From a virus, in the IMG/VR virus record IMGVR_UViG_3300025420_000010, positions 1 to 42,216 of that record: a stretch of DNA of 42,216 bases; one strand, written 5' to 3'. A program made the position numbers and the translations under genes. Below are positions 5,134 to 33,682 of the stretch, in pieces. The notes beneath the pieces are model-generated. The model saw only the letters and a list, made by a program, of their open reading frames with translations. It made no database searches and was not told the origin of the DNA. Each line of letters begins with the position of its first letter. Positions within the stretch are counted from its first letter, which is position 1.

Positions 5134-6267
5134 CTAATATTTAATGCAATACAAGACTGAATAGTTCTTCGGTCTTGTTTCTGTGCCGCCCGTTGTTGAG
5201 TCCGCAACTGTTGTGGTGATGTTGGCAGTGCCTGAGCCGGTTGTTGCGGAATATTGTGAAGGTGTTTGGCCACCTAAACCGCCCGCTGCCGGACCCGATG
5301 CTGATGATGTAGCGGTATAACCGTGCGTATGGCCGGAGTCGGTCGATGTTGCAGGATGGTTATGGTTTAAATACGTGTCAGCTTGATACCCAGTTGTGCC
5401 GATTGTTCCGCCGATGGCTGTAGGATATGTCCCGTTTGTGCCAGTGCCACGAACAAACATACCGCGAAGATCGGGGAGATTGAACGTCGTCGAGCCATCA
5501 CCATTTCCCCAAGCCGTTCCGATGTTCGAAAACAAAACTGCATAAGTAGATCGTGAAATAGGATCACCGTTTGCGGCAAGCCAACCGGCAGGGCAACTTC
5601 CCATTGCATAGGACGCAACCTGACCCGGAGGTGTTGAAACAGCTATGTTGTTGGTGACAAGCTGAAATTGACTTGTCGTGGAATAATACGTCACACCGAT
5701 GACGTTTCCAGAAACAACTTCACTTCCTGTCAAGATCGCTGTGCCGCCAGCCGTTGGCTTCACGACAGAAATTGGTGAGCCGCCATTAACAGAAAGCGTC
5801 AACGCCCCGGAGTTCGTTGCCCCTGCGACAAAGTAAAAGGTTTGGCCGTTGGTGCTGGCAAAGCCCGAAACCGTTACGGTCTGCGCATTCGCCGTGCCGC
5901 CACTTACCGAGCCCCAGCCTAACGTCGAGGTGCTTGCAGCATCGCCTGTTTCTTTTGTCCAGATCGTGTTGCCGTTAAGGTCTTTTAGAACTTGGCAGTA
6001 AGTTCCTGACCCAAAAATCGTCGCACGACCAGCGGAGTCCAAAACCACAGGATTTGTGTTTAAAACGGTCTGGCCAGAATTCGACCAAGTATTTTTCAAA
6101 ACCGTGCAGGCAGGATAGTTTGAATAAAATGTAACCGTGCCACCAGCATAAGGCTTACCGTTTCCATCAACGAATTGTTGTTGGCCGTTAGGCAAAAGCG
6201 TAGCAGAGTGCAGACTTGAACTTGAAAGTAAAAAGGCAAGAAGCCCTGCTGTTGTTCTTTTCATCAT
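5134..6267 (-). CDS. Tail-collar fiber protein with N-terminal signal-peptide-like segment
   Basis: 377 residues, last gene of the late operon. The N terminus MMKRTTAGLLAFLLSSSSL looks like a Sec signal peptide, with a less ideal cleavage site near HSA. Residues about 24-115 (LLPNGQQQFVDGNGKPYAGG, TVTFYSN, LDSAGRATIFGSG) match the N-terminal domain common in phage tail fibers. Residues about 215-290 form a Phage_Collar domain (GSCPAGWLAANGDPISR, then FNLPDLRGMFVRG), followed by a Gly/Ser/Thr-rich tip. Four cysteines are present. AGGGGA precedes the first ATG, which overlaps the previous stop. The protein probably recognises the host surface or connects fiber to tail. Confidence 0.85.
   Translation of the reverse strand: MMKRTTAGLLAFLLSSSSLHSATLLPNGQQQFVDGNGKPYAGGTVTFYSNYPACTVLKNTWSNSGQTVLNTNPVVLDSAGRATIFGSGTYCQVLKDLNGNTIWTKETGDAASTSTLGWGSVSGGTANAQTVTVSGFASTNGQTFYFVAGATNSGALTLSVNGGSPISVVKPTAGGTAILTGSEVVSGNVIGVTYYSTTSQFQLVTNNIAVSTPPGQVASYAMGSCPAGWLAANGDPISRSTYAVLFSNIGTAWGNGDGSTTFNLPDLRGMFVRGTGTNGTYPTAIGGTIGTTGYQADTYLNHNHPATSTDSGHTHGYTATSSASGPAAGGLGGQTPSQYSATTGSGTANITTTVADSTTGGTETRPKNYSVLYCIKY
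5151..5178 (+). terminator. Probable terminator of the left plus-strand operon
   Basis: ACAAGAC (5151-5157) and GTCTTGT (5172-5178) form a 7-bp stem with a 14-base loop, followed on the plus strand by TTTCTG. It lies 46 bases after the ATPase stop and inside the last codons of the convergent tail-collar gene. The stem is only moderately GC-rich, so efficiency is uncertain. Confidence 0.45.
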
Positions 6268-8666
6268 TCTTCCCCTGCCAATGGATTAAGTGAAACCGCG
6301 CCCCTCACAATATTCCGCGCAGCTCTACGCTTTTCTTTACCAAAAGTCCCGGCAAAAACTTGCTTACGAACTGCGGGACTTTTTAGAAGTTGTTTTGTCG
6401 CCAAATCTCGCGCCGCAAAAGTTGTGGCTGCGCCTGCAAGTGCAGTTGGAAGGGCGTATTGGATTAAAGGGCCACCGGCAGCAGCAATGTCAGAAAGGCC
6501 CGGAGCAAACACCGATGCGGCAGATCCACCAAATGTCAATGGACGCCAATTTTGTTTAAGGGTTTGCCAGATTTCTCCGGGGCTCATTCCGCCACCTCCA
6601 CGAGAAAATGGTGTGGCCGCGCCGGAAGGCTCAGTGCCGCGCAAGAATTCTCCTACAGGTGCAAGGTCTTTAAGACGTGAAGTCGAGCCTTTCTTTCCAA
6701 CAGCATTCGCAATAGCTCTTGGGTCAACAATCCCGCTGGTGGTGGTGTGTGGATCGACATTAATAATGTCGCGGTAGCGTGAACGTAAGCCCGCCCATTC
6801 TTTTGCAGCCCTTGGATCGTTTGCTGCAAGAAGATCAAACATCACATTTCGAAGTTCACCGCCATAAAACTTCTTGATGGAGTTTGATGCGGCGGAAAGT
6901 TGGCGATCAATAATGCCGCCTTTCTGAGTGTATTTCTGAAATACTTTTCCATTTAATTGTCCAGTTGCAAGATCAGTTCCAATGTCGTGAATGATCCCTT
7001 GAACAATTTTCCGAATGTTATCATCACGAAGTGTAAAGGAGTCTGTATAAACATTGTAAAGGTCTGTCGCAGCTTTTTGAGTTGCACGAAGCGGGGCCAC
7101 ACCTGCCGCAACTGCGCTCATTTTACTTCCAACATCCTGTGCAGCTTTTTCAACTTCCGCAGGGGTAAGGTCTTTTGATCCGATGATCTTCGAAACTTCT
7201 TCCGAGAACCTTTTGTTTTGCTGGTCAAGAAGTGATTGTGGCGCAGTTTGTCGAAAGAATTCTGCAGCCTCGCCCTTTGCAAATTGGCCGGGATAGACAG
7301 GAATATTGAATTCTTCAAGCGCCTGTTGTCCGACTTGACGTGGACCGGCTTCCCATTCCGGGGCTAACGCTCCACCAGCCCGTGGTGAAACCAACTTCGA
7401 AAGTGCAGGGCCAAGCGTTCCGCCTAAAAGCGCGCTTGTTCCGAATTGTTCCATCAACGGGGTTTCTGTATCACCGAGTGATCCACCCATCGCACGACTT
7501 GCAGCCTCAAGGCCTGTTTGCGTCACACCTTGAATTGCGCCCTGCGCACCGGCAGACCCAAGCCTTGTAGCCGCCCCGGCGAGTCCTGGCATTTGTTCAG
7601 CCACTTGCGGGATCGCTTGACCAGCCTCACCGCCTAAAAATCTCATTGCTTGTGGAACATAAGGTGCGACCGCAGGGGCAACCATCGGGGCAACCCGTTC
7701 AGCGACCTGACCTAAAACCTGCCCAGCTCTTGCCAATGGGATCGCGGTTGTGGCAACAGAGCCCAAACCTTCCGCGCCATAGCCAGAAAGTGGATTTTCT
7801 AAATTGTAAAGGCGACGTTGTTCTTGGAGTTCCGCAAGACGTTGTTGGTAACGCTCTTGGTTCATGGCATGTCTGCCACCAACAAACGGATTATAACCAG
7901 CCTCAAAAGCGGCTTGGATTTGTGGAGCAAAACCTAACGTCGCGCCGGTCGCAAGGGAATGACCAACTCCCCATTCTGGCGCAAGTTCACCACGGGGAAT
8001 ACGATCCTCTCCGCGAAGCCCTGCGAATTGGTTTAAGGTTGTAAGACGCCCTGCGAAGTTGTGACCAGCGGATGGGTTCTCTGGGGAATATCCTGCCGGA
8101 CGTTCAAAGTGCATCTGTGCGATAGCAAGGTCACGGGCGTTTTTAGCATTTTGCACAAGGTTGTATTCTGGCCTTGAGCGCAACTCCTGTAAGGCGAAAG
8201 CATTTTGTTGTTGCCAAGAAGGATATTCCGCGCCAGCAAACTTCCGCATAGCGTCGAGGCGCTCTAATCGATGGCCATACAGTCCGTAGCCTGTGTTCTG
8301 GTCGTGATGTGCGGCAGGATTTAACTCGCTTTCGGATGCAGCGGCAGATGTTAGTAAGTGTGCCTCATTAGGAGAGGCTCCAAGGCTCAAAAGGTGCTGA
8401 TATTGTTGTGCAGGGCTAAGATGACCTTGCGCTTTCGGACGCCCATATTCCCCTAAATACGAAATATTGACATTGCCTAATGGCTCACCTTTGGCCTTCG
8501 CCTGTTGGGCTTGGCGCTCTGTTGCCGTCGAGCCTTCATGCTTTTCAGCCCAATAAGCATCTAAGGCACTCATGGGGGCAGATGCAGAAGGAGCAGGGGC
8601 TGGTATTGAAGAAGTGTCCACCCCTTCCTCATGGTGTTTTTTCCAGTAGTCGTCGAGAGCTGACAT
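6264..8666 (-). CDS. Ejection/internal virion protein with tail-lysozyme-like domain
   Basis: 800 residues; the ATG overlaps the previous TAA. A short element MSALDxYW..HE occurs twice at the start (residues 1-15 and 32-45). Residues about 83-230 look like a phage tail-lysozyme-type peptidoglycan hydrolase: LLSLGASPNEAHLLTSAAAS, SESELNP (E112, E114) and GYGLYGHRLERL. The rest is rich in Ala, Gly and Gln with weakly hydrophobic stretches (about 410-440 and 700-770), as in proteins ejected with the DNA by podoviruses such as P22 gp16. Its place among ejection-type proteins after gp4 and gp10 supports this role: opening the cell wall for DNA entry. Confidence 0.65.
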   Translation of the reverse strand: MSALDDYWKKHHEEGVDTSSIPAPAPSASAPMSALDAYWAEKHEGSTATERQAQQAKAKGEPLGNVNISYLGEYGRPKAQGHLSPAQQYQHLLSLGASPNEAHLLTSAAASESELNPAAHHDQNTGYGLYGHRLERLDAMRKFAGAEYPSWQQQNAFALQELRSRPEYNLVQNAKNARDLAIAQMHFERPAGYSPENPSAGHNFAGRLTTLNQFAGLRGEDRIPRGELAPEWGVGHSLATGATLGFAPQIQAAFEAGYNPFVGGRHAMNQERYQQRLAELQEQRRLYNLENPLSGYGAEGLGSVATTAIPLARAGQVLGQVAERVAPMVAPAVAPYVPQAMRFLGGEAGQAIPQVAEQMPGLAGAATRLGSAGAQGAIQGVTQTGLEAASRAMGGSLGDTETPLMEQFGTSALLGGTLGPALSKLVSPRAGGALAPEWEAGPRQVGQQALEEFNIPVYPGQFAKGEAAEFFRQTAPQSLLDQQNKRFSEEVSKIIGSKDLTPAEVEKAAQDVGSKMSAVAAGVAPLRATQKAATDLYNVYTDSFTLRDDNIRKIVQGIIHDIGTDLATGQLNGKVFQKYTQKGGIIDRQLSAASNSIKKFYGGELRNVMFDLLAANDPRAAKEWAGLRSRYRDIINVDPHTTTSGIVDPRAIANAVGKKGSTSRLKDLAPVGEFLRGTEPSGAATPFSRGGGGMSPGEIWQTLKQNWRPLTFGGSAASVFAPGLSDIAAAGGPLIQYALPTALAGAATTFAARDLATKQLLKSPAVRKQVFAGTFGKEKRRAARNIVRGAVSLNPLAGEE

Positions 8667-10210
8667 TATTCTGGCTCCTCAAACTTTATCCTACCCGACT
8701 CTTTTAGATAATTATTCCAGTCTTCATTGAACTTATTCGCCACAAAACCTCTTTCACGATCAGTTCTGTATTTTTTATTCCAACGATTGAAATGTTCTTG
8801 GCGCTCAAGAGCAGATGTGTTGACCTTTTCTACATAGTCTAACATACGCTTAATACCGCCGGGAGAAGAAGCTAACCCCGGAAATATATCCATAAACTTC
8901 AAAGTCTCCAATTGCCCAATTTTATTGGAAGCACCTACTGCAGTTCGTAATCCAGCAATTGCCGAAACTGCCGCTAATTTTTCAAAGGCTTCTGCCGCGC
9001 CGACCCATTCTCTTGGATTATCTGATCCTGTGACGACTTTGCCAGCTTTTTCTAGCAACTTACTTGCATATTTCCGCATAGGAGAGTCTTCAGCTTCTCC
9101 TCCGATAGCATTTTGAGCATCTATCAATAGTTTAGTTGCCGACTTTCGCATTGGAGCAGTTGGTCCTGTTCCTGACTTCCCAAGAGCTTCAATGTCTTTC
9201 AACAAACTTCTTGTTTCTGAGATGGCTTGCTGACTTCCAGTTGCACTTTGTGCAGCCTCGCCAATCTCCTGTCCAAGTTTTGCATAATCCCCTTCACCCT
9301 TTTGGAAGGCAGATTCACGCTGCGCAGCAATAGGCGCTTCTTGAAGATATTTGTATTGGGTGGCAGGAGCCCCAGAGGGTTGAGGCCCCTGCCGAGCCAC
9401 GCCAGCAGCGGGAGGAGCCGACCCGCCCTGCGCAGCATTCATTGGTTCTCCCATAAGATCGGCAGCACCTTCTGGCAGCGCACCTTGAACCTTGTAGGCA
9501 GGAACCTTTATTTTCTGTCCGTATGTTGGAGAGTCAGGGTTGTCGTCAAAGGTTTCGATAGGAGCGGTAAGCTGCCCCAATGTCAGACCTGCAGCCTTAA
9601 TACCTTCAATCCCTCTTGGCGCTGACATCGCAAAAGTGCGAGCAAAGTCATCAAACTTTTGCCCGCCGTCAATCGCTTTTGTCATCTGGATCAATGCTTG
9701 TTGCGATTGCGGGCCTCGCTCTAAAGTTCCAGCTGCAATTTGTTGTGCCACAAAATCCGCCGCAGCTTGCTTATCAGCCTCCGGGCCTTTCAAACCCTTC
9801 CGCACTTTTTCTTGGTAAATAGAAGATATAATCCCAGCATTTGTATCTAACTTTTTCTCAGCATTCATTAACTGTTGGCCAAGAATTTGTTCATGCACAT
9901 GCTGGTTGTTAAGCATGAGCGTCATAACTTCGCCCATGATCGGGCGGATTTCTGGAACAGTAGAGGCATGAACTAGGAATTGTTCGTTGTTAAGTTCCCC
10001 AGTTTTTGGGTCCACATGATGCTGCATCAACTGGCCGAGCGCCTGCTTTGCAACAAATTGTTGTTGTTGAATAGCTGCCGCTTGTTCTGCACGGCGAGTT
10101 TCAGCATTCCGCAAAGCAATGCCTTGCATCTGCGACATCATTTCCAAAGGATTACTTTCTGTAAACCTTGGGCCTTCTGGAGCTTGTGGGTATGGAATTT
10201 CGCCAGCCAT
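8666..10210 (-). CDS. Putative DNA-ejection (internal virion) protein
   Basis: 514 residues, start preceded by GGAG. It is mostly helical and rich in Gln, Ala and Glu (early stretch MAGEIPYPQ, then an EQAAAIQQQQF helix), with a coiled-coil-like middle and no catalytic motif that I recognise. Size, composition and location between a small Gly/Ala-rich protein and a lysozyme-bearing large protein match the three-protein ejection sets of P22-type phages (gp7, gp20, gp16). The assignment is by context and composition only. Confidence 0.5.
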   Translation of the reverse strand: MAGEIPYPQAPEGPRFTESNPLEMMSQMQGIALRNAETRRAEQAAAIQQQQFVAKQALGQLMQHHVDPKTGELNNEQFLVHASTVPEIRPIMGEVMTLMLNNQHVHEQILGQQLMNAEKKLDTNAGIISSIYQEKVRKGLKGPEADKQAAADFVAQQIAAGTLERGPQSQQALIQMTKAIDGGQKFDDFARTFAMSAPRGIEGIKAAGLTLGQLTAPIETFDDNPDSPTYGQKIKVPAYKVQGALPEGAADLMGEPMNAAQGGSAPPAAGVARQGPQPSGAPATQYKYLQEAPIAAQRESAFQKGEGDYAKLGQEIGEAAQSATGSQQAISETRSLLKDIEALGKSGTGPTAPMRKSATKLLIDAQNAIGGEAEDSPMRKYASKLLEKAGKVVTGSDNPREWVGAAEAFEKLAAVSAIAGLRTAVGASNKIGQLETLKFMDIFPGLASSPGGIKRMLDYVEKVNTSALERQEHFNRWNKKYRTDRERGFVANKFNEDWNNYLKESGRIKFEEPE

Positions 10211-10220
10211 CTGAGGCTCC

Positions 10221-11120
10221 TTATTTTAATCCGCCGGTATAGTTTAAAGCGTTTGTAGAGGTTTGATAGCCCCTTGAAGGGAATGGACTTGTGTTGCCAG
10301 TAGCAAAATTCCACAAATCTGCTGGGCCGGAAGGACTGACATTCCCGCCGCCCATGACACCTTGTCCAGCCAACTGCGCCATTATTGGGAGAGATGCGGT
10401 AGAACTTAGGCCAGATGCAATCCCACCATAAAGCGCATTTGTTCCTTGGGCCTGTGCATTTGCTGCACCCATCACACCTTGACCAAGTGCCGTGCCTGCA
10501 CCCATCATCGCATTTCCAGTCAACTGGCCAGTTTGTAAAGCCGCTTGCCCCAACTGCCCTGCCGCCTGTGCGCCCAGCTGTGAAGGCTGGAATAGCATGT
10601 TATAGGCTTGAAGGTTTTGGTTCATATAGTTTTGGAGTTGTTGCTGGAATGTTTGTGACGCAAGCCCTGTTGCTGTCGTGCCGATTTGCTGCACAAGATT
10701 GCCGGATGTGCCAAGGCCTTTTGCTGCACCAGAATTTGCCATGCTTCCAAGGGCCTGTGTTTTCGCCCATTGATAGCCCGGAGTGCTTTCAAGCTGCGCT
10801 TGGGTAGGCTGGAAGGTGGACATTAACGTGTCACCTCCCCCGCCGATACCTGCAGTTTTTGCAGCATTCCCTGTCAAATAACTTTGCAGGGTGTTCATGG
10901 AAGTTTGGCCAGCTTGAACGTAAGGGTTCAAGGCCGCTTTTGCTTGATTAAAATACTGGGCGTAATTTTGTTGAGCTTGGCCTGCGGCAAGGGCCTGCCA
11001 AAGTGCGGCATTTTGCGCACCACCAGCTTGAATGTTGGACGCTTGCTGTCCCCCAAATCCTTTTAGGAGATTTCCCGCCAGCAATCCGCCGCCCATCATG
11101 GCTAAAGTTACGGGGTCCAT
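10221..11120 (-). CDS. Putative small DNA-transfer/ejection protein (P22 gp7 type)
   Basis: 299 residues with a good GGAG site (GGAGATTAATATG). Composition is extreme: Gln, Ala, Gly, Asn and Met dominate, with many GQ, AQ and NALYG-like units (LGQGVMGAANAQAQG). The N terminus MDPVTLAMMGGGLLAGNLLKG is hydrophobic and could insert in membranes. Such proteins, often called DNA transfer proteins, are encoded with the tail hub genes of P22-like phages and leave the virion during infection. No enzymatic motif is seen. Confidence 0.55.
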   Translation of the reverse strand: MDPVTLAMMGGGLLAGNLLKGFGGQQASNIQAGGAQNAALWQALAAGQAQQNYAQYFNQAKAALNPYVQAGQTSMNTLQSYLTGNAAKTAGIGGGGDTLMSTFQPTQAQLESTPGYQWAKTQALGSMANSGAAKGLGTSGNLVQQIGTTATGLASQTFQQQLQNYMNQNLQAYNMLFQPSQLGAQAAGQLGQAALQTGQLTGNAMMGAGTALGQGVMGAANAQAQGTNALYGGIASGLSSTASLPIMAQLAGQGVMGGGNVSPSGPADLWNFATGNTSPFPSRGYQTSTNALNYTGGLK

Positions 11121-11163
11121 ATTAATCTCCTAAATGTCAAATCCGGCCTACACATCATAATAC

Positions 11164-11454
11164 TTAACTCCCCGAAGGGATAGGGGTTTCGGGAGAAGTT
11201 GTTGGAGCAACAGGCTGAATAACTATCGGAATAGCAATGGGTTTTGGCTGAGCCGCAGCAATTTCTTCTGGGGTCTTCGGCACAATAGTCAAGGTCGTTA
11301 AATCAACCTTAAAACTTTTATAATCGAACTTACGCTCGACTTCGATAATCTTTTCACCCGCAGCCTTCCGCATCTCAAAAAACACTTCATGCTCATGGGT
11401 GAAGGAGTCGATGTTCCCTTGGTCATCGTAGTGAATAAACATTTTGTTGGTCAT
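11164..11454 (-). CDS. Unknown protein with proline-rich tail
   Basis: 96 residues. The start MTNKMFIHYDD is chosen because its ATG overlaps the TGA of the upstream gene (ATGA) and GGGAG lies 9 bases upstream. The first 60 residues are mixed alpha/beta (VFFEMRKAAGEKIIEVERKF); the last 35 are rich in Pro, Ile and Thr. Its position after a fiber-like gene suggests a small virion or fiber-assembly protein, but I do not recognise it. Confidence 0.5.
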   Translation of the reverse strand: MTNKMFIHYDDQGNIDSFTHEHEVFFEMRKAAGEKIIEVERKFDYKSFKVDLTTLTIVPKTPEEIAAAQPKPIAIPIVIQPVAPTTSPETPIPSGS

Positions 11455-12251: not shown

Positions 12252-12252
12252 G

Positions 12253-13668: not shown

Positions 13669-13681
13669 TTCACTACATCCC

Positions 13682-14083
13682 TTACGTAGCAGACATTACG
13701 TTAGCAATCCATACGTTGTTCGTCACAGCGATAAAAAGCACACGTTTAGCTGCAGCATAAGAAACACCTGTCGCACCAGCTGTGCCGTTGATCGTGTCAG
13801 AACCCTGCGCAAAAACCTGCACAGCGTCTGCGCTATCTGCATTCAGCAAGTAGACGATGGTGCCTGCAACTGCGCTTGGAAGCACAACGCTGTCAGCAGC
13901 CGTGCCCACAACCGTGACAACATTCACGCCGTTGACAAGAACTGGAGTAGAAGAAGAAAGGCCACCACCAGCAAGGGCTGTGATGCCGTAGTTTGTCTGC
14001 CACTGTGGAGTAGCCATAAGATTTTCAAGAGTATATCCGTCTTGAAGCGCGTAACCATTGGGAAGACGATCAGGTATAGCCAT
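13682..14083 (-). CDS. Small beta-rich virion protein (decoration-like), paralog of the first domain at 32083-32727
   Basis: 133 residues lying between the gp4- and gp10-like genes. It starts MAIPDRLPNGYALQDG and is otherwise beta-rich: GITALAGGG, SVVLPSAVAGTIVYLLN, VQVFAQGSDTING, VLFIAVTNNVWIA. The same order of elements occurs in residues about 10-125 of the 214-residue protein at 32083-32727 (GYRLIDG, GITATAGG, VVLPQALPGMIMIVAN, ITVFASHGS, ATFYISTAVGQWIAL), so the two are paralogs. It may be a capsid or tail decoration protein. I recognise no named family. Confidence 0.55.
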   Translation of the reverse strand: MAIPDRLPNGYALQDGYTLENLMATPQWQTNYGITALAGGGLSSSTPVLVNGVNVVTVVGTAADSVVLPSAVAGTIVYLLNADSADAVQVFAQGSDTINGTAGATGVSYAAAKRVLFIAVTNNVWIANVMSAT

Positions 14084-14088
14084 TTGAG

Positions 14089-15381
14089 TTACCTCGTTTG
14101 GTCGCTGTAAATGTTGTAGACACTCGGACGGACCAGATTATCCGGCATCACAAGGCTAGGTATTTGTGCATTCGCAGAACGGATCGTCTGGAGCGCATCT
14201 GCCGCCAGCCCTTCATATGTCGGATCTGGTGGAAGTCGGTATGCAGCGCGGGTGCGAACTACAAGATTGTAGTGGATAGCTGCAAGGTATTCGGGCGGAA
14301 ATATGAAAGGGCTTGTTAGATTGTTGAATTCAGTCAACACATCTTTGAGCAAGATATGGACTTCGTAAAGGTTTGCTTGTGGGATCGGCCAAGGATAAAT
14401 GCGCCCCAAAGGCCATGCGGAGTCATAGAATATGCATTGCGAGAATGACACTAATTGCTTGAGCGTAATTCTTGCATAATCCTCCATTGAGAAAAGGATC
14501 TGGAGCGGATAGTCCACCGCCTGTGTGCCGCTTCCGCCCGCCAGCATTCTGAAAAACGCGCTTTCGAGTTTGTCCGGGCGCGCTGCTACATTTATGTCAC
14601 CGCCGGGGCCGACCGTATAGCTTTGGGCCCCAGTTGACACCACACTCTTGTCCACAAGGTGCCATACCAACCAGCGTTTCATCCGCCACTGAGCAATCAT
14701 CATATTCAATCGCGTCAAGGCGTCATTAACATCTTCTGCCAGAAGCGACTGACCAACACCCAACACGCCAGCGTCTTTATAAGCAAGATTGATAATATCG
14801 AGCGCCGTAAATGTCGCCCCGCCGAAAGGTGTCGGATAAACAGGATCGACCGGCTGGACAGAGCAAGAGGCATTGCCGCCGGGGAGGGTAGCTGCAAGCG
14901 AGAAGCACGAAACCAACTGGGCCGAAGTCCAGCCAAATGTGGTCTGAGCCAAAAGCGCCAATTGATCTGTGATCGAAATACAAACCGCAGAATTAAACTG
15001 TATCCAAAGCGTGTCGTTTTTGTTTGCCGTTACAGCCTGCGACAGCAATTCCACATTGGCCTGTATGGCAATGGCCGCAAAGAACTGCTGCCTTGAAACC
15101 GCCGCCACAGTCGATGGCACAACCGTCGCGCCACAAGCTACATCTCCACCCGGAAGTGTCGCCGCGAGGGTGAAAAGCGAGTCAAGTTGGAGCTGCGTCC
15201 AGTTGAACGTGGTTCGCACCAACAGGGCAATATCATCTGTGGACGAAATGCACGTCGCGGAATTAAACTGGTTCCACGCGGTCGTATTTGGATTGGCCAA
15301 AACAGCCTGCGAAAATGTTTCCAAATTCGCCATATCCGCTATTGCGGAGAAGAATTGCTCGCGTGATACGGTTGCGGTCAT
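14089..15381 (-). CDS. P22 gp4-like tail accessory factor with two extra N-terminal QFF repeats
   Basis: 430 residues, against roughly 166 for P22 gp4 as I recall. Residues about 190-430 are the gp4-like part: ALDIINLAYKDAGVLGVGQS, ALTRLNMMIAQWRMKRWLVW, GRIYPWPIP, and PPEYLAAIHYNLVVRTRAAY. gp4 binds the portal ring after packaging and forms the first tail layer. In front are two copies of a Cys-containing repeat with an exact 90-residue period (QFF at 9-11 and 99-101; QFNSA at 38-42 and 128-132; LAATLPGG at 72-79 and 162-169). A third copy lies in the protein at 32083. The repeats may decorate the tail or add an enzymatic or binding function. I do not know them from P22. Confidence 0.8.
   Translation of the reverse strand: MTATVSREQFFSAIADMANLETFSQAVLANPNTTAWNQFNSATCISSTDDIALLVRTTFNWTQLQLDSLFTLAATLPGGDVACGATVVPSTVAAVSRQQFFAAIAIQANVELLSQAVTANKNDTLWIQFNSAVCISITDQLALLAQTTFGWTSAQLVSCFSLAATLPGGNASCSVQPVDPVYPTPFGGATFTALDIINLAYKDAGVLGVGQSLLAEDVNDALTRLNMMIAQWRMKRWLVWHLVDKSVVSTGAQSYTVGPGGDINVAARPDKLESAFFRMLAGGSGTQAVDYPLQILFSMEDYARITLKQLVSFSQCIFYDSAWPLGRIYPWPIPQANLYEVHILLKDVLTEFNNLTSPFIFPPEYLAAIHYNLVVRTRAAYRLPPDPTYEGLAADALQTIRSANAQIPSLVMPDNLVRPSVYNIYSDQTR
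14863..15099 (-). repeat. QFF repeat, second copy within the gp4-like gene
   Basis: Codes residues 95-173 of the gp4-like protein. The first copy lies at 15133-15369 (residues 5-83), exactly 270 bases away. Shared positions include QFF, ANxE, QAV.AN, W.QFNSA.CIS.TD, ALL..TTF.WT, and LAATLPGG. The DNA has diverged more than the protein, so the duplication is not recent. Confidence 0.8.
15133..15369 (-). repeat. QFF repeat, first copy within the gp4-like gene
   Basis: Codes residues 5-83 of the gp4-like protein and is in tandem with the copy at 14863-15099. A third, more distant copy is at 32086-32322. Each unit is about 79 residues, mainly helical, with two Cys positions in the gp4 copies (for example C44 and C83 in this one). 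Confidence 0.8.
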
Positions 15382-15403
15382 GGGTTAAGACCTGTGTTGA
15401 GTG

Positions 15404-16492
15404 TCAGCAATGTGTCACTATCCCGTTTGTTATTACCATCGTTGATGTATTTACTGTGCCTGCCGAACAAGATACACCGACAGCTGCTCCAACATTTATT
15501 CCACTATTAAATATAGCGGTCCCATTTACGGTTAATGGAGAACTTATAAAAGAAGCAGTTGCCCCAAAGTAAGCAATGTTACTTCCGTTTCCATTATTAT
15601 AATCTTGAATAACAACCGGAAAATTATTTTGCCCAGAACGTAAATTTATATTTCCATATTGCGAACCAAAAATAAGGGCTGTTCGATTAACCCCACCAGC
15701 ATCAATACCATTAAACGCTATTTCTTGACTATCTACGCCGTTACCAACTGCTCTAGTTCCAAAATACGCTCCACGATAAACTTGTCCGTCTCTTGAAAAT
15801 AAACAAGCGCCCCACTTTAATCCTGTCGTGGCGTTACACGTCCAAGCTACTGCTGACGAAGGTTGTATAGTGCCAGAAAGAAACGCGACTGATCCCGATA
15901 CAATAGTCGAAGCATTTCTTGAGTCAAAATCAAACTCATTTTGCTCAGTAACATTTGTAATCCCTGCATCACCATTCCAAGTATTTATACCAAATAAATT
16001 TGCCCCATTTCCGCTGGCTCTAGCCACAAAAAACCCGGAAACGCAGCCACCTCTAGGTGAAATTCCAGTCCAATCTTTTGCACAATCTGAATATCCAGAA
16101 ACTGCATTTGATTGAAGATTTGTAGCAGTTGTTGGCTCTATAACTGCCCCTACAAGAGCTTCAGTAGCATGATAACCGCCCCAAAATGATGAAAAGAATT
16201 GGCCTATATTTATATTTCCGACATTTGAAACAACATAATCATATTGCTGTGTGTTATCAAAAGCACCAGCATTTGTTACATTAATTATACTAGGAGTTAA
16301 TGTCCAAGCACCCGCAGAACTTACAGTTCCTAAATTATACCAGTTCCCTTGAATATTCGCCCCAAAATTGTAAGGCGAGCCAGATGGTAAGGTAAATCCC
16401 CAAGTCATCTGGTTATAGGTTTGAGCGCAGGCACCATTTACCCACAACAATGCAACCAGCAAAGTTAAAAAGTTTTTGATACCTGCGATCAT
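15404..16492 (-). CDS. Exported fiber-like protein
   Basis: 362 residues; AAGGA precedes the ATG. The N terminus has a textbook Sec signal peptide: charged start, hydrophobic core FLTLLVALLWV, and ACA before Q24. The mature part is beta-rich and full of Asn, Gly, Thr and Ser, with six cysteines (two close pairs, DCAKDWTGISPRGGC and CNATTGLKWGAC). The end (FNSGINVGAAVGVSCSAGTV, then a terminal THC) is of a type seen at fiber tips. Composition is more A+T-rich than its neighbours, suggesting exchange of a host-recognition gene. It sits between gp4 and a small coiled-coil gene. Confidence 0.65.
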   Translation of the reverse strand: MIAGIKNFLTLLVALLWVNGACAQTYNQMTWGFTLPSGSPYNFGANIQGNWYNLGTVSSAGAWTLTPSIINVTNAGAFDNTQQYDYVVSNVGNINIGQFFSSFWGGYHATEALVGAVIEPTTATNLQSNAVSGYSDCAKDWTGISPRGGCVSGFFVARASGNGANLFGINTWNGDAGITNVTEQNEFDFDSRNASTIVSGSVAFLSGTIQPSSAVAWTCNATTGLKWGACLFSRDGQVYRGAYFGTRAVGNGVDSQEIAFNGIDAGGVNRTALIFGSQYGNINLRSGQNNFPVVIQDYNNGNGSNIAYFGATASFISSPLTVNGTAIFNSGINVGAAVGVSCSAGTVNTSTMVITNGIVTHC

Positions 16493-16493
16493 G

Positions 16494-23651: not shown

Positions 23652-23654
23652 GTT

Positions 23655-25022: not shown

Positions 25023-25049
25023 TCTATATTCAATCCAAAATGGGGCTAA

Positions 25050-25704: not shown

Positions 25705-25713
25705 CCTTCTCTC

Positions 25714-26647: not shown

Positions 26648-26660
26648 TTGGCACCCTTTC

Positions 26661-26849
26661 CTATCGATTATAGCATCTTGTGAGAGAAGGAGTTATCTTT
26701 TTACACACAACTCGAGGCTGCGGTTTGCCGTCATTCACAAACCCATCACCTTCGATTTGAGAGCATCCTGTCAAGAACCCTAATGCTGTGCAGAGAAGCA
26801 CCATCCAGCTTACCGTGCCGAATGCCACTATTCGCCAATCTTTGTCCAT
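26661..26849 (-). CDS. Rz1-like outer-membrane lipoprotein (o-spanin candidate)
   Basis: 62 residues; the ATG overlaps the endolysin TGA (TGATG). A hydrophobic signal (WMVLLCTALGF) is followed by the lipobox LTGC with C29, so the mature protein would start at a lipidated Cys. The short mature part has a QPR motif and two more cysteines. Small size, lipobox and direct neighbourhood with the endolysin fit an outer-membrane spanin. No embedding i-spanin gene with a coiled coil is visible, so the pair is incomplete or the protein does something else. Confidence 0.5.
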   Translation of the reverse strand: MDKDWRIVAFGTVSWMVLLCTALGFLTGCSQIEGDGFVNDGKPQPRVVCKKITPSLTRCYNR

Positions 26850-27376
26850 CACGACCCCCTATTCGCACGTTTAAGGGCGTATTGAAATGCGGTAGCATAC
26901 CCCGCGATTAAATTTGCCTTGTCCTGACCATTTATAATTCTTCTCGCCCCGACATAATCGCATTTCCCTGCGGAAATGTAATCTGCGAGCTTTTTGCCCG
27001 TGAAAAGGCCTTTTGTCATGCCTTCAAAACAAGCGCGAAGTGCTACTGGCCATGCGAGCAAATCTTCGGGCTTTTCGGCCCCAAAGAGCTTTGCATTCCG
27101 CTCCCACGTCACTTGGACCAAACCCATTCCGATCCAGGGCCAGTAAGGCTTTGACTTTAGGTAGCGTAAGCTCCCTTGCTCCTTGACCGGCACCATTTTA
27201 TGCCCAGTTTCCCAGTTCACCGTCGCAAAGATATAGGCCAACTGGTCGTCGGTCACGCCTTTATAATTGCTATCACGGTAGTCCAGAATTCGCGTGATGC
27301 CGTCTACTTGCGCAGCCGTAAGTTTCCCGCCGAACAGGGCATGTCTAATTCTGTTGAAAAAGTATGCCCTGTCCAT
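26849..27376 (-). CDS. Endolysin, glycoside hydrolase family 19/lysozyme-like
   Basis: 175 residues with TAGGAG before the ATG. The pattern LTAAQVDGITRILDYRD, then LAYIFATVNWETGHKMVPV (probable catalytic E56), PWIGMGLVQVTWERNAKLFG and the C-terminal ARRIINGQDK block match phage endolysins of the chitinase-like GH19/lysozyme superfamily (G-x-G-x-x-Q-x-T signature). No signal peptide is present, so it would need a holin. The lipoprotein and membrane-protein genes that follow complete the lysis module. Confidence 0.8.
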   Translation of the reverse strand: MDRAYFFNRIRHALFGGKLTAAQVDGITRILDYRDSNYKGVTDDQLAYIFATVNWETGHKMVPVKEQGSLRYLKSKPYWPWIGMGLVQVTWERNAKLFGAEKPEDLLAWPVALRACFEGMTKGLFTGKKLADYISAGKCDYVGARRIINGQDKANLIAGYATAFQYALKRANRGS

Positions 27377-27386
27377 TTACGCGCTC

Positions 27387-27620
27387 CTATTTTGCTTTGG
27401 CTTTAATCTGCGCCTGTATCTTCTGGGCTACAGCCTCAGTTGCAAGTTTATCATGCTCGGCCTGTAAAAGAGCCTGCAATTCACCAACTGTGATGGTGAT
27501 TGGGGTGTTTGGATCGACTTGCTGTTGTGCAGATGCAGCTGCTGGAGCAGCAGGTTTTACATCCTCTGCAAATGCTGGGAAAGACGCTAAAATCAGAGAT
27601 GCAATAATTACCTTTTTCAT
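27387..27620 (-). CDS. Small exported protein, unknown
   Basis: 77 residues with AAAAAGGAAG upstream. Residues 1-18 are a clear Sec signal peptide (MKKVIIASLILASFPAFA, cleavage before E19). The mature part is Ala/Pro/Gln-rich and then helical and acidic/basic (VGELQALLQAEHDKLATEAV). It has no cysteine. Located between the giant fiber and the endolysin. It could act in the periplasm during lysis or fiber maturation. Confidence 0.6.
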   Translation of the reverse strand: MKKVIIASLILASFPAFAEDVKPAAPAAASAQQQVDPNTPITITVGELQALLQAEHDKLATEAVAQKIQAQIKAKAK

Positions 27621-27682
27621 TTGGCTTCCTTTTTCGGGAGGTTAGAGTTTTACAAGAGAACTGCCCGATCAATTCCCTTGAA

Positions 27683-30600
27683 TTAGTTACCAAAGCAGGT
27701 GTATTGGAATTTAGCACTCGTCGCACTTGTATATGTGATCGTAAACGCTGATGCACTTTGGGCCGATATATACAAACCAGAATTTGCAGCATTTACAGGA
27801 CTTACTGTGCAATAAGCTGAAGTCGGATAAGCCGTTGCAAAAGTAATAGTGCAGGCGGTTGTCGCAGTTGATCCTGTAGTAATCTGACCAGAATTATTAC
27901 TGCTGCCTGTCGTTACGGATGGCGATGTGCCACAAGTGGTAATCGTTGGTGATGCTGCGGCAGTTTGAACGGAAGTAGCCGCATTTATAACGCCGCCGCC
28001 ATAAATCGCCCCTGACGCGCCTATACCTCCAGATACTGTAAGAGTTCCACTGGAAGTTGAAGTTGAGGCAATGTTTGCAGATAAATTTACGTTACCACTA
28101 CTATTAATAGCCATCCTATTCGTGCCAATAGTCGTAGTAGTATTGGCGGCTGTATTAAATTGAATAGATGTAGCTGCATATTGTTGTGAATACCCGCCAC
28201 CAAATGCTATAATGTTATTTGTAGCGTCTGATGACGCGCCAAAAATGGCTACAGGCGTTCCTGACAAACCAGAATAGTTTGCAACGCCCATCATTGCATA
28301 TTTTGTGGTGTTTGTTCCGGCATTATCTGACAAAATCAGATTTGGTATAGATTTTACAATCTGGACACCATATGACGGCGAATTGGTGCCAATTCCAACA
28401 TTTCCTGTCGATGTAGCGCCAATTCCAATTGTGCCAGATCCCTTCGCATCAAGGGTCAGATTTTCGTTCGTGCCGGACGAAATGGTCGAAAGGGCCACGC
28501 CACTGCCTGCAGCTGCAGATTTGATGTTGAGGCCTGTGGCAGAGGATGCAGTGGACGTATCTACGTTGAATGCTGGATTGGTTGTGCCGTTAGGGCCAAC
28601 TGAAAAAGAATTTGCAAGTGCTTTTGTTAGATAATTTGAAATTGCGGCGTCGGCACTAAAATTAACTTTAGCGGCCCCTGCCGATAAAAGTTGCATCGTT
28701 CCATTATCATTTGTAGCAGAAAGTCCATTGAATGTGACCGTGCTATATGTTCCGTTACTTAGAATGTAACCTTGATATTGTGTAGATGTAATTTGGTTAA
28801 ACGCATTGCTAACCGTAGTTGATCTTTGAAGATAAATATTTCCTGTAGAATTATTACCTATAGTAATATTTCCTGTGCCTTTAGAGTCTATAGTTAGAGT
28901 TTCATTTGTTCCGCTAGATATTACCGAAAGCGCGACACCATTGCCTGCCGCCGCTGACTTAATATTCAATCCAGTTGCTGAAGATGCAGTAGAGGCATCA
29001 ACATTAAGCGCCGGATTTGTGGTGCCGTTTGCTCCTACAGCTAAAGCATTAGCTGATGAAGATGTGATTGTATGCGCGGCGCTTGTTAATGTACTGCTAA
29101 GAGCCGTTGTGCCTGTAACTGCGAGCGCGTTTGTGCCGATTGTAGCTCCACCAAGAGCAAGCGACGTGCCTGTAGCTGCACCAAGCACTGGAGTCACAAG
29201 TGTGGGCGATGTCGAAAATACAAGATTTGTGGAAGTTGTTCCCGTAGTGCCGGAAGCTGTAAAGCCTGTAATGTTATTAAAGCATGTAATGCTTGCCGCC
29301 GTGCAGGCCGTGCCACCATTGGCAACAGGAAGCGATGTGACCCAAGACGATACACCACCAGTTGTTGAAGTCAGAACAGCACCGTTAGCTGCGGGCGTGG
29401 CAACAGGAAGTGTTAATGTCCATGCCGCCGTTGAAGAAGCTGAAGAAGCAAGAGTGGTTGGAAACGCACCTGCATTAGTATTAGCGAGTGTTAATGTGCC
29501 TGCCGTTGTGCTTTGAACTCCGAGCGTAGGAGTTGCAGTTGCTGTGACAGTATTTGCAGTTCCAGATGCTAAGATCGTTCCTGCCGTTGTGGTTGCAGGG
29601 AATGTTGCAGTTGTCCAAGATGGATTGGCCGCAGCACCTCCACTTTGAAGATGCTGACCTGCCGAGCCTGTAGCGCCCAATGTAGCTGGAGCAGCACCTG
29701 CACCGCCACCAACAACAAGTTGATATTGTGCCAGCAATGCTGAAGATGCCATCGCAGTTGTGCTGGAGAAATACGGAATACCGCCACTTGTAACTGTGCC
29801 GCTAACTGTGGCAGGGAACGGAATGCTTGAAGCTACAGCTGTGACCGTGCAGGTAGAGCCGAGTGTGCAGCTTTGCCCATTGACCGTTGTTGTCGGGCTT
29901 GTCCAAGTCATGGCGGAAGCGCCACCGGCCTGCGACGTTAGCAAATATCCCGCCGTGCCGACGGTTGTAGGCAAGTTGAAATTGTAGGCTGTGGTTGCAC
30001 CATTGTTCTGGACAGTGACCGTTGCTCCTGTTGCACCACCATTTGCAAGGCCCAATTGGCCTGTCGTTGTGGCGTTCACACCGAGCGTTGGTGTCGCTGT
30101 AAAGGCTGGTGTCGCACCTGCAAGGATCTGCCCTGCCGCACCTGTAATCGAGATCGCACCAGTTGTTGAACTAATTGAAAGTGGCGCTGATGCTGTAGAG
30201 ACAAGTGTTCCGCTAGTATTAGGAAGCGTTAGTGTTGGTGTGCCTGCTGCGGCTTGCGCTGTGATAGTTGCCGTGCCGCTTGTAGCGCCGGTCATATTCA
30301 ACACGCCGGTAGCTGTGCCAGCTACACCAAGCGTAAATGTGCCTTTTGTAGTGCTAAATTGCGCCGACTGCCCACCGCTTGTGTAGATGGAAAGCGGCAG
30401 ATAGGTGCCTGTGCCATTGATGCCGGAGACAAGTTGCACATCTGTGCTGGCATTTGTAGCGATTAAAATCTTGCTTGCGTTTGTGGGGTCAGAGTTGTTG
30501 GTTGCTTGCCAACTTGCCGCAGTCGATGTGCCGTTTGGAAGGGCGTAAATGCCGGTTGTAGCGTTTGTGGTGCTTGTCTGAAATGCTCTACGGCTATTGA

Positions 30601-32080
30601 CCGTCGCATTGTCGAAGTCAGCAAGAATACGTCCAGCCGTTCCCGTATAAGTTTCATTCCCGCTAATTGTTGGTGTCGTGATGGTCGGGCTGGTCGAGAA
30701 CACCAAATTGGTGCTGGTAGTGCCGGTCGCGCCTGTCGCGGTATAACCTGTGATGTTGTTAAAGCATGTGATGCTAGACGCAGAGCAGTTCGTGCCACCA
30801 TTTGCTACCGGCAAAATTGAGGTCCATGATGAGACGCCACCAGTTGTCGCGGTCAGGATCGCACCATTTGCTGCCGGAACCGCAAGAGGAAGCGTCAAAG
30901 TCCAAGATGCAGGGGTATTTGCGCCAGCTTGTAGGGTAGTTGTATAAGCTGAACTTGCATTTGCTAGAGATAGTGAGCCAGTTGTTGTTGAGGTTTTGCC
31001 CAATAAAAGATTGCCTGTCGAGGACAACAACATCAATTGCGCTGCGCCAATTCCACCATTATACCAAACAAATGAGTCTCCTGCGCCTCCACTAAAACGA
31101 ACAAATGGAGACACATAATCAACGGCCACCCCATTTGTAAAGGAGCCCGCATACGCGCCTGTTATAGACGCCCCGCCAGCAAATATAGCCGAATAAGGCG
31201 ATTGAACAGTTAAATTTCCAGCAAGAGCAACACCATTCCAAGCTCCAGAATTGGTAATCGATAAATATCCACTTGTCATTCTAATCAAAGTTAATTGTGC
31301 CGTTGCTGATCCATCAAACCATCCTAATTGTAAATTTTGACTTTCAATGTTTGTCCCAGAAGCGGATTTTGCCCCTAACGACAAGCCAGTATTTGTAGTC
31401 CCACTAAGACTAACAAAACCTCCGCCCCATTTAATTCCTGTTCCAAGTGAATTAACTATAAAAGCATTAGAAGTTGTAGGCTGGCTTAATGAATTGCCAC
31501 CAACACTTACACCAATAACTTGTGTAGCGGGAGACATGATATTAAAGTCCAGTTCCGCTCCAATGCAATAATTACCTGTTAAAGAAGCAATGGCTCTTGT
31601 AGGAGCATCTTGACAAAGAGTGTTTACACCCCAAACTGAAGAATTATTAGCAACAGATTGAACTGCAGCAAATAATCCAACGCCATTTCCTTGTCCTGCG
31701 CCATTTGTTCCCGACGCATTCTTAACATAAGCAGCTAATCCTGTATTGTTTATCGTTGTTGTTCCTGCAGTTATATCTGCAACACTTTGAATTGTATCGC
31801 TAAAGGTGACGCTGGGATAAATAGCTGAATAAATGCTGTTTGCAGCCGTAGATGTTTTTTGGGCGACAACATTATTTTGAAATAACTGTGTCCCTGACCA
31901 AACATTATTCTGTGCCAACAACGGCATAGCCGTCCAAGTCGTGCCAATTTTATATTGGAGCGGAGTGCCTGTCGGCAAAGTCTGAGTGCTATCCCAACCC
32001 CATTGCGGAGTCATGTTAGGCGCAGCAACTGCGGCCTGCAAAGCAATCAGACTAACACCTGCTACCAAGAATTTCTTCAT
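27683..32080 (-). CDS. Giant exported fiber-like protein, 1465 residues
   Basis: The start MKKFLVAGVSLIALQAAVAA at 32080 is chosen: GGGGAT precedes it, it begins 2 bases after the upstream stop, and it gives a good Sec signal peptide (cleavage after AVA). A longer reading to 32236 would overlap the upstream gene. The mature part is low in charge and dominated by Thr, Ser, Ala, Gly and Asn, with fiber-type units such as PVANGGT, TNLVFSTSP, GNVGIGT and SGGIGASGAIYGGGVINAAT. Two pairs of internal duplications are present. Twelve cysteines are counted in the mature part. The C terminus (TACTITFATAYPTSAYC, FQYTCFGN) is typical of fiber tips. No S74 chaperone is seen. Likely a long tail fiber or a secreted/surface adhesin. 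Confidence 0.75.
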   Translation of the reverse strand: MKKFLVAGVSLIALQAAVAAPNMTPQWGWDSTQTLPTGTPLQYKIGTTWTAMPLLAQNNVWSGTQLFQNNVVAQKTSTAANSIYSAIYPSVTFSDTIQSVADITAGTTTINNTGLAAYVKNASGTNGAGQGNGVGLFAAVQSVANNSSVWGVNTLCQDAPTRAIASLTGNYCIGAELDFNIMSPATQVIGVSVGGNSLSQPTTSNAFIVNSLGTGIKWGGGFVSLSGTTNTGLSLGAKSASGTNIESQNLQLGWFDGSATAQLTLIRMTSGYLSITNSGAWNGVALAGNLTVQSPYSAIFAGGASITGAYAGSFTNGVAVDYVSPFVRFSGGAGDSFVWYNGGIGAAQLMLLSSTGNLLLGKTSTTTGSLSLANASSAYTTTLQAGANTPASWTLTLPLAVPAANGAILTATTGGVSSWTSILPVANGGTNCSASSITCFNNITGYTATGATGTTSTNLVFSTSPTITTPTISGNETYTGTAGRILADFDNATVNSRRAFQTSTTNATTGIYALPNGTSTAASWQATNNSDPTNASKILIATNASTDVQLVSGINGTGTYLPLSIYTSGGQSAQFSTTKGTFTLGVAGTATGVLNMTGATSGTATITAQAAAGTPTLTLPNTSGTLVSTASAPLSISSTTGAISITGAAGQILAGATPAFTATPTLGVNATTTGQLGLANGGATGATVTVQNNGATTAYNFNLPTTVGTAGYLLTSQAGGASAMTWTSPTTTVNGQSCTLGSTCTVTAVASSIPFPATVSGTVTSGGIPYFSSTTAMASSALLAQYQLVVGGGAGAAPATLGATGSAGQHLQSGGAAANPSWTTATFPATTTAGTILASGTANTVTATATPTLGVQSTTAGTLTLANTNAGAFPTTLASSASSTAAWTLTLPVATPAANGAVLTSTTGGVSSWVTSLPVANGGTACTAASITCFNNITGFTASGTTGTTSTNLVFSTSPTLVTPVLGAATGTSLALGGATIGTNALAVTGTTALSSTLTSAAHTITSSSANALAVGANGTTNPALNVDASTASSATGLNIKSAAAGNGVALSVISSGTNETLTIDSKGTGNITIGNNSTGNIYLQRSTTVSNAFNQITSTQYQGYILSNGTYSTVTFNGLSATNDNGTMQLLSAGAAKVNFSADAAISNYLTKALANSFSVGPNGTTNPAFNVDTSTASSATGLNIKSAAAGSGVALSTISSGTNENLTLDAKGSGTIGIGATSTGNVGIGTNSPSYGVQIVKSIPNLILSDNAGTNTTKYAMMGVANYSGLSGTPVAIFGASSDATNNIIAFGGGYSQQYAATSIQFNTAANTTTTIGTNRMAINSSGNVNLSANIASTSTSSGTLTVSGGIGASGAIYGGGVINAATSVQTAAASPTITTCGTSPSVTTGSSNNSGQITTGSTATTACTITFATAYPTSAYCTVSPVNAANSGLYISAQSASAFTITYTSATSAKFQYTCFGN
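28435..28600 (-). repeat. Fiber internal repeat A, copy 1
   Basis: Codes SSATGLNIKSAAAGSGVALS and the following 20 residues. It matches 28872-29037 over 166 bases at constant offset (437), with many third-position changes, so the protein is kept more than the DNA. Confidence 0.75.
28872..29037 (-). repeat. Fiber internal repeat A, copy 2
   Basis: Codes SSATGLNIKSAAAGNGVALS and neighbours; partner of 28435-28600. Confidence 0.75.
29189..29423 (-). repeat. Fiber internal repeat B, copy 1
   Basis: 235 bases coding LPVANGGTACTAASITCFNN and flanks up to TNLVFSTSPT. It matches 30671-30905 without gaps. Confidence 0.75.
30671..30905 (-). repeat. Fiber internal repeat B, copy 2
   Basis: 235 bases coding LPVANGGTNCSASSITCFNN and flanks; partner of 29189-29423. 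Both copies keep a C-x6-C pair. Confidence 0.75.
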
Positions 32081-32082
32081 GT

Positions 32083-32727
32083 TTATCCCCACGGCGATAA
32101 GGTCGCAGCAATCGCCATCAATGTTGCCATCTGCCCAGATGTGTAACCATAAGTCGTCTGACAAAGTGCGTAAAGTGGACTTCCGACCACAACATACGAA
32201 CTTGTGTAAAATTGCACCGTCGCAGCATTTGCCCAATCCGGGTTAATCGCCTGCACCAACAAATTCGGATCAGCCGGAGTAGGCATCAACGGCAACGCAT
32301 CAAAAAACTGATTTTTCGTAACTTTAATTGTGGCCCCAGCAATATCAATCGGAAGTGCGATCCATTGTCCAACTGCTGTTGAAATGTAAAAAGTGGCAAC
32401 ACCGACAGTTTGAACAATACCGACGCTTCCAGCAATCGCCCCGATATAAGATCCATGCGAAGCAAACACTGTAATGTCATGGCCAGATTGATTAGCCACA
32501 ATCATAATCATGCCCGGAAGGGCTTGCGGCAGCACAACACCCGCGCCAGACGCCGCACTCGTCACATTCGTGATGGTATTTGAAATCTGGTAGGAATTAT
32601 TAACATTCCCACCTGCAGTTGCCGTTATACCTTCCGAATAAGCCCAAAGCGGATACGCCAGCCCGTCATTAAGCTGGTTGCCATCTATCAGCCGGTATCC
32701 ACCGGGAAATTCTTGGAAGGCAATCAT
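32083..32727 (-). CDS. Two-domain virion-like protein: decoration-like domain plus QFF repeat
   Basis: 214 residues, AAAGG upstream. Residues about 10-125 (GYRLIDGNQLNDG, GITATAGG, VVLPQALPGMIMIVANQ, ITVFASHGS, ATFYISTAVGQWIAL) are paralogous to the small protein at 13682-14083. Residues 136-214 (VTKNQFFDALPLM, then TTYGYTSGQM and IAATL) are a third QFF repeat, like the two in front of the gp4-like protein. So it combines pieces of two adjacent tail-module genes. No signal peptide, unlike its neighbours. Probably a fiber-base or tail-attachment adaptor, which is an inference from the shared domains. Confidence 0.6.
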   Translation of the reverse strand: MIAFQEFPGGYRLIDGNQLNDGLAYPLWAYSEGITATAGGNVNNSYQISNTITNVTSAASGAGVVLPQALPGMIMIVANQSGHDITVFASHGSYIGAIAGSVGIVQTVGVATFYISTAVGQWIALPIDIAGATIKVTKNQFFDALPLMPTPADPNLLVQAINPDWANAATVQFYTSSYVVVGSPLYALCQTTYGYTSGQMATLMAIAATLSPWG

Positions 32728-32739
32728 TCCGAATACCTT

Positions 32740-33147
32740 TTAATACTGCAATGTGGTCAAAACCGCAGTGCTGGTAGATGTCGCGCAATACAAGGCAGAA
32801 GTAGACTTCGTAAGATCAAGCGTAACGCCAGATGGCAGAGCAAAACCTGTTGTGCTGCTCACCCCTGACGGGCCAAGATAAATTGTCGAGCCTGACGTGT
32901 TCGACACAAATCGTCCCGCAGATGATGTCGTGACCGCTGCCAAAACCTGCACCGTTCCCGCAGTCGTGCAAGTCACCTGTGCTGCCGCAGGAGTTCCTCC
33001 TGCAAAAGCCTGACAGAAATACGGAGCGTTTGGATCACAAATCGCAACATCGCTTTGAATGCTGCCATTTGGCGCAGCTTCCACACCGGGAAGACCAAAA
33101 GAGAAAGCCCCGATCACAAGGGCGACAAGTGACAAGAGCTTTTTCAT
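32740..33147 (-). CDS. Exported small beta-rich protein
   Basis: 135 residues, AGGATTAA upstream. Signal peptide MKKLLSLVALVIGAFSFGLP with cleavage near VEA-A. The mature part has four cysteines (AICDPNAPYFC at about 36-46, QVTC, ALYC) and a beta-rich body with TIYLGPSGVSSTTGFALPSG, a pattern seen in small head- or tail-decoration proteins. Disulfide formation after export is plausible. It may bind the neighbouring fiber or the cell surface. Confidence 0.6.
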   Translation of the reverse strand: MKKLLSLVALVIGAFSFGLPGVEAAPNGSIQSDVAICDPNAPYFCQAFAGGTPAAAQVTCTTAGTVQVLAAVTTSSAGRFVSNTSGSTIYLGPSGVSSTTGFALPSGVTLDLTKSTSALYCATSTSTAVLTTLQY

Positions 33148-33170
33148 TTAATCCTCTCAAAAGGAAGGAG

Positions 33171-33191
33171 AAGGGGGCATAGCGCCCCCTT
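33171..33191 (-). terminator. GC-rich hairpin after the exported protein gene at 33197
   Basis: AAGGGGGC (33171-33178) and GCCCCCTT (33184-33191) form a perfect 8-bp stem with a 5-base loop, 5 bases after a stop codon. On the transcribed strand CTCCTTCCTTTTG follows. It is a candidate partial terminator or mRNA-stabilising element. Confidence 0.55.
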
Positions 33192-33196
33192 ACAAA

Positions 33197-33682
33197 TTAG
33201 TTATATGCCCAAGCGTAGGTTGTAGCGCCGCCCGTATTCGTGCAAAGAACTTCACGGGTAACTGCACCCGTCGCAGACACAGCCGAACCATACGTGCCGG
33301 TCGCATAAGCCGTGCCGTTGCTAACCGTAGCAACTGCGCCCTGCAAAGCAGCCGTGCAAGAAGGAAGCGTAGCAATCGTCGAAATCGAAGGCAACACATA
33401 CGTCGTAACGCTCGAGCCCGAAAGCACATAAGCACGAAGCTGCGAGGTCTGGATCAATTCCGTCTGTGGCTGAATGCTGCCAACCGTCAGACCAGAATAG
33501 CTCTGCGTCAGGTTGGTGTCAGCTGGGATCGTTTCATTACCCGTCAGCGGCAGGGTCGTAGCATTACCCGTGATCGGGCTCGAGGTAGCAAGCGGATAGC
33601 CAGGAAACTGGCCAGCAGCAAAAGCAGCAGTTGCGCCGAAAAGCGCAAGCAAACTGCCATAAAGAGCAACTTTCTTCATCAT
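33197..33682 (-). CDS. Exported beta-rich protein
   Basis: 161 residues; ATG (first of two) overlaps the upstream TGA, and AGAGG lies upstream. Signal peptide MMKKVALYGSLLALFGATAA with cleavage near AFA-A. The mature protein is Thr/Ser/Ala/Gly-rich (LPLTGNETIPADTNLTQSYS, TAYATGTYGSAVSATGAVTR) with two cysteines (LPSC, EVLC). Followed by a strong hairpin, which suggests high expression. Possible secreted virion or surface protein. Family not recognised. Confidence 0.6.
   Translation of the reverse strand: MMKKVALYGSLLALFGATAAFAAGQFPGYPLATSSPITGNATTLPLTGNETIPADTNLTQSYSGLTVGSIQPQTELIQTSQLRAYVLSGSSVTTYVLPSISTIATLPSCTAALQGAVATVSNGTAYATGTYGSAVSATGAVTREVLCTNTGGATTYAWAYN

Follow-up and report, generated by a model that had tools for sequence, protein, structure and literature searches.

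Signal peptides on a tailspike and on fibre-like proteins of a P22-like freshwater phage suggest export and late attachment

The receptor-binding proteins of the phages described here may leave the cytoplasm by the Sec pathway, become oxidised in the periplasm and be mounted on particles at lysis, a reading towards which we lean. That widespread uncultivated tailed phages finish their virions in this way outside the cytoplasm, with Sec-exported, host-oxidised spikes and fibres attached at lysis, is a broader proposition that we regard as evenly poised. The case centres on one gene, A, of the window, which is the whole stretch of DNA analysed and spans a virus record of 42,216 bases. The sequence supports its signal peptide (SP), the head-binding domain (HBD) that follows, its genomic slot, its single copy and its paired cysteines.

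The window derives from a freshwater P22-like podovirus that has few relatives in culture. Its portal has no match above 60% identity among database phages and matches 66 uncultivated loci, many at 81-100%. On the minus strand, the late genes run TerL, portal, scaffold, coat, gp4-like connector, Hc3 and three ejection-type genes, of which 10221-11120 matches phrog_598 (DNA ejection), and then A (Table 1), an order that gene-order comparison shows to be that of P22. A is located in the tailspike slot, after the ejection genes of this P22-like late operon, and when the order around A and the ejection genes was compared with P22, PBR31 and H6/1, the latter two were found to carry a tailspike with an HBD in the equivalent slot. 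On the plus strand, a DNA polymerase A-like gene (550-3895) is in two parts, 550-1611 and 2414-3895, and an HNH-like ORF recognised by eye (1601-2134) between the halves resembles an intron or homing-endonuclease insertion.

Table 1. Features of the window discussed in the text (SP, predicted Sec signal peptide; arrow, predicted cleavage site)
Feature	Coordinates	Strand	Description	Mature Cys	Remark
A	5134..6267	-	Predicted tailspike/short tail fibre; SP, HBD, collar domain PF07484	4	
HBD of A	5923..6204	-	Tailspike head-binding domain, from the predicted signal-peptidase site		Profile and fold
Ejection genes	6264..11120	-	Three ejection-type genes, gp7/gp20/gp16-like order		Directly upstream of A; mark the tailspike slot
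B	15404..16492	-	Putative exported fibre-like protein; SP ...GACA↓Q	6	Between coat and gp4-type connector
C	27387..27620	-	Putative small exported protein, 77 aa; SP ...AFA↓E	0	Immediately before the endolysin
D	27683..32080	-	Putative repetitive fibre-like protein, 1465 aa; SP ...AVA↓APN	12	
E	32740..33147	-	Putative small exported protein; SP ...VEA↓APN	4	Cys kept in complete relatives
F	33197..33682	-	Putative small exported protein; SP ...AFA↓AGQ	2	Cys kept in 10 distinct homologues
G	32083..32727	-	Protein without SP; its N-terminal domain heads large SP-lacking fibres in relatives		Directly upstream of D

The product of A begins with MMKRTTAGLLAFLLSSSSLHS↓ATLLPNG, and by profile the 94-residue stretch that follows the SP matches the HBD of the cyanophage Pam1 (7eeq, E 3.9e-8) and the tail spike of Pan3 (9vyg, E 1.7e-7). 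An AlphaFold2 model of the HBD, built from 98 natural sequences, has a pLDDT of 81, and its best 21 PDB matches in Foldseek are all tailspike or tail-complex entries (Pan3, Pam1, P22, Sf6). The collar domain PF07484 (E 3.8e-21) comes after the HBD. The AlphaFold2 model of full-length A (pLDDT 46) gave fold matches of low TM-score in a viral library and was used for the designation 'collar fibre' only. Profile, slot and modelled fold together identify A as a tailspike. It shares the HBD and the slot after the ejection genes with the tailspikes of P22, Sf6, Pam1 and Pan3, but differs from them in its collar-domain C-terminal part, its cysteine pairs and a Sec SP joined to the HBD, which in described P22-type tailspikes stands at the very N-terminus (a usual rather than a formal criterion). 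The collar domain is shared with short collar fibres (PF07484, phrog_1858), among which the closest SP-lacking orthologues are L088-L122.

Across 127 distinct HBDs, collected from viral contigs, two genome contigs and phage records, the N-terminus is bimodal: in 35 an SP is joined to the start of the domain, and the other 92 begin 1-10 residues before it. The SP-bearing junction reads A↓ATLLPNG (for example ANA↓ATLLPNG) and the SP-lacking start M-ATLLPNG. Since the SP abuts the domain, cleavage by signal peptidase would yield the N-terminus that SP-lacking forms have after removal of Met. One protein, L290, was counted as SP-lacking, as its SP would start at a GTG without a ribosome-binding site and an ATG stands at the domain edge. 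The SP is conserved in the clade of A, with cleavage sites such as LNA↓A, ANA↓A and LWG↓A in relatives, and in sister phages the orthologues begin with the HBD. In 31 of 32 records with an SP-bearing HBD gene, that gene is the only HBD gene, so that no cytoplasmic spare is seen, although the records are incomplete and a second, SP-lacking spike could be missed; two HBD genes are present in the exception, the record that contains L058. Every SP-bearing case found is in an uncultivated contig. All 12 database phages with an HBD that were examined lack the SP, and none of the five genomes with HBD matches, in a sample of 369 from the class of the Pandoraea record, was read as SP-bearing. A genome scan with query A1 gave no match, and one with query A3 gave two loci, both SP-lacking.

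Cysteine content follows the SP. HBDs with an SP have two cysteines in 22 rows, four in two and none in 10, whereas those without have none in 76 rows and one in 15; among HBDs with any cysteine, the even-to-odd split is 24 to 0 in SP-bearing and 0 to 15 in SP-lacking forms (Fisher p=4e-11, kinship of rows ignored). In A, the mature cysteines are C33 and C70 of the HBD and those of SCPAGW and YCIKY in the collar and at the C-terminus. Twenty rows have both C33 and C70; no row has one without the other, and SP-lacking forms have neither. Further pairs, at alignment columns 38/53 and 76/107, turn up in varying combinations in L188, L196 and L201. All 20 collar-type proteins with an SP have SCPxGW and a C-terminal YCIxY without the free GWxxC cysteine, whereas all six without an SP show the reverse, one free GWxxC cysteine and neither SCP nor tail cysteine. 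For whole mature proteins containing cysteine, even and odd counts are 26 and 2 with an SP and 26 and 51 without (p=3e-8, rows related).

These rows are related and independent origins are few, so the Fisher p-values imply more independent events than there were. The HBD tree is poorly resolved, with seven changes of SP label on the best tree, two of them forced by well-supported branches, and four changes for the cysteine pair; an independent-pairs test, with too few pairs, falls short of significance. Paired cysteines with none unpaired, set against cytoplasmic homologues, are the mark of a disulfide-bonded periplasmic protein, and this is the pattern found. The initial annotation had proposed that six proteins are routed to the periplasm, where disulfides can form; conservation of the SPs and cysteine pairing in homologues make predicted export and disulfide bonding of the SP-bearing forms well supported on comparative grounds, and its interpretation as a whole is supported in part.

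The six genes which that annotation had picked out (A to F) do each encode a Sec-type SP, with n-, h- and c-regions and a (-3,-1) site, behind a start with a ribosome-binding site, and a recount returned its mature cysteine numbers of 4, 6, 0, 12, 4 and 2. The start of D is 32080, and that of A forms an ATGA overlap with the upstream gene. Five good AxA-type cleavage sites had been claimed: the site of A (SLHS↓A) is the weakest, and that of E is VEA↓A and not AxA. The scorer used, a hand-made combination of hydrophobicity and the (-3,-1) rule rather than SignalP, selects these six and no others from the 50 called genes. Applied to P22, PAE2 and P26218, it makes two or three calls in each among 41-52 genes, mostly membrane and lysis proteins, and it calls nine of 147 spurious ORFs of the window; one or two calls per genome could therefore be chance. 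Shuffling the N-termini, a control that retains the hydrophobic make-up of the six, gave a mean of 1.6 calls and a maximum of 6. The count of six, only moderately unusual by these controls, was set aside as the main argument, as was cysteine parity within the five window proteins alone, a weak argument (about 1/32) until homologues are included, which make it strong. At the level of sequence, it is conservation and not number that settles the reality of the SPs: complete homologues of B, C, E and F retain an SP while its sequence changes, and the only other complete homologue of D does likewise.

Under the mechanism that we propose, A, and very likely B, D, E and F, would be synthesised with a Sec SP and cross the inner membrane, signal peptidase would cut, in A at the HBD to leave the same N-terminus as the cytoplasmic versions, and disulfide bonds would form in the periplasm. 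Short-tailed heads would assemble in the cytoplasm without spikes; once the lysis proteins break the envelope, particles would meet the periplasmic spikes and the HBD would bind the tail hub. We infer export, disulfides and attachment at lysis, the last from the intact HBD, its single copy and its slot, together with the late addition of the P22 tailspike: in P22 the tailspikes attach last, and their addition to tailless particles is possible in vitro. The P22 tailspike also has reduced cysteines that are important for folding, which counts against a reading of A as an oxidised spike.

Secretion for a purpose outside the virion is the chief alternative, which we consider possible but unlikely. 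The SP-bearing proteins would then be exported and disulfide-bonded, and released as adhesins, depolymerases or receptor-masking factors; with the same low probability, their tasks would be to block superinfection, to free progeny from debris or to open neighbouring capsules. B, E and F do have no recognisable attachment domain, enzyme-like segments are discernible by eye in the SP-bearing relatives L331 and L306, and bacteria secrete a tailspike-like enzyme: Pantoea WceF has an exported tailspike-like fold in common with A, but is a bacterial enzyme with no phage part and carries a Tat rather than a Sec signal (PMC7949094). A, however, keeps a complete HBD, the sole one in nearly all SP-bearing records, and the virion would otherwise be spikeless; related phages, moreover, have SP-lacking orthologues of identical domain order. 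A role outside the virion is less likely for A than for B, D, E and F. Among the four roles offered by the initial annotation (secreted adhesins, surface decoys, superinfection-exclusion factors, or virion parts added during or after lysis), the last fits A best, given its HBD, slot and status as the sole HBD gene. B, D, E and F could be either fibre-like virion parts or secreted accessory proteins, and C is probably an ordinary lysis-cassette protein.

A second, improbable explanation is dual use, in which slow or inefficient targeting would leave part of A in the cytoplasm to be built into virions normally, the exported part serving a second role. It would suit the cleavage site of A, the weakest of the six, and the excess in which late phage proteins are produced. 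Against it, SP-bearing forms have lost the free cysteine and acquired cysteine pairs, which suggests that the functional form is oxidised, and many SP-bearing relatives have better cleavage sites. It is very improbable that the hydrophobic N-termini are not export signals at all but uncleaved membrane-active virion segments, or that the true starts lie downstream. Cleavage is predicted from sequence and a hydrophobic N-terminus could act during entry, but SPs of widely differing sequence have their predicted sites on or close to the domain start, and the cysteine pattern also argues for export. Alternative starts, which would have undermined the initial annotation, were sought in frame within 70 codons, and none has a ribosome-binding site except an adjacent second ATG, present in A and F only. 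Finally, an origin of the SP-bearing genes in bacterial DNA or mis-assembly of metagenomic contigs is scarcely credible, for although all cases come from uncultivated contigs, they turn up in numerous separate assemblies and, where flanks were read, stand next to portal, coat and ejection genes, and the sample of 369 genomes yielded none.

To our knowledge, the textbook rule is that assembly of tailed phages takes place entirely in the cytoplasm and that only lysis or lysogeny proteins are exported. Exported phage proteins include spanins, SAR endolysins, Lom and the coat proteins of filamentous phages; like the SP-bearing proteins of the window, they use host export, but those of tailed phages serve lysis or lysogeny, and filamentous phages assemble in the membrane. 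No report of SP-bearing tail fibres or tailspikes was found in the open-access literature, a scope that makes 'unreported' provisional with respect to subscription journals and preprints; in a study of phage diversity-generating targets, the phage proteins lack SPs (PMC6199706). Export of phage-like fibres is exemplified by the MAT fibres of Bdellovibrio, which have a signal peptide, a beta-rich domain and a phage-like trimeric fibre, although they are bacterial predation proteins and not virion parts (PMC10769870). If receptor-binding proteins are exported as proposed, virion completion would be tied to lysis, infection would depend on the export and disulfide machinery of the host (SecA, LepB, DsbA), spikes could swap between particles in mixed infections, and an SP would no longer count, for annotators, against a virion role. 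The cysteine pattern offers a means to find such phages in sequence data.

Beyond the HBD, two more C-terminal ends that contain cysteines are almost confined to SP-bearing proteins, whose cysteine counts are even. B ends in GVSCSAG...NGIVTHC, and a scan of viral contigs for this type of ending gave 28 distinct proteins, 25 with a complete start; an SP is present in 22 of the 25 by the scorer and in 24 by eye, mature cysteines are even in 21 of 22 (p=5e-6), and the genes lie among phage tail genes in most loci inspected. The four-cysteine C-terminal domain of D occurs in six further distinct proteins, all seven being SP-bearing with even cysteine numbers, and one, L345, has an HBD-like N-terminus after its SP; the D C-terminus scanned alone in viral contigs gave two matches. 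The L305 protein had no match in phage records. C has a weak match to phrog_17608. Also adjoining the endolysin, 26661-26852 (minus strand) encodes an o-spanin-like protein of 63 aa with the lipobox LTGC.

SP-lacking fibres of the G family in the same phage group have mixed cysteine parity. An N-terminal domain, GYxLxDGxxL...P.W, is common to 13682-14083, G, L018, L024, L025, L036 and L049, standing alone or heading large SP-lacking fibres, and is possibly a second virion anchor, split in the window from the SP-bearing fibre D. A module of about 85 residues, often cysteine-bearing (VSRQQFFAAIA...ATLPGG), occurs twice at the N-terminus of the gp4-like connector (14089-15381, minus strand), at the C-terminus of G, and alone in L036 (16541-16795). 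Glycosyltransferase-like genes, recognised by eye, lie within the variable fibre cassette in L018 (3245-4336) and L049 (2740-3840), and in other uncultivated phages (L301, L348, L349) three or four SP-bearing genes form a cassette, lying side by side or nearly so.
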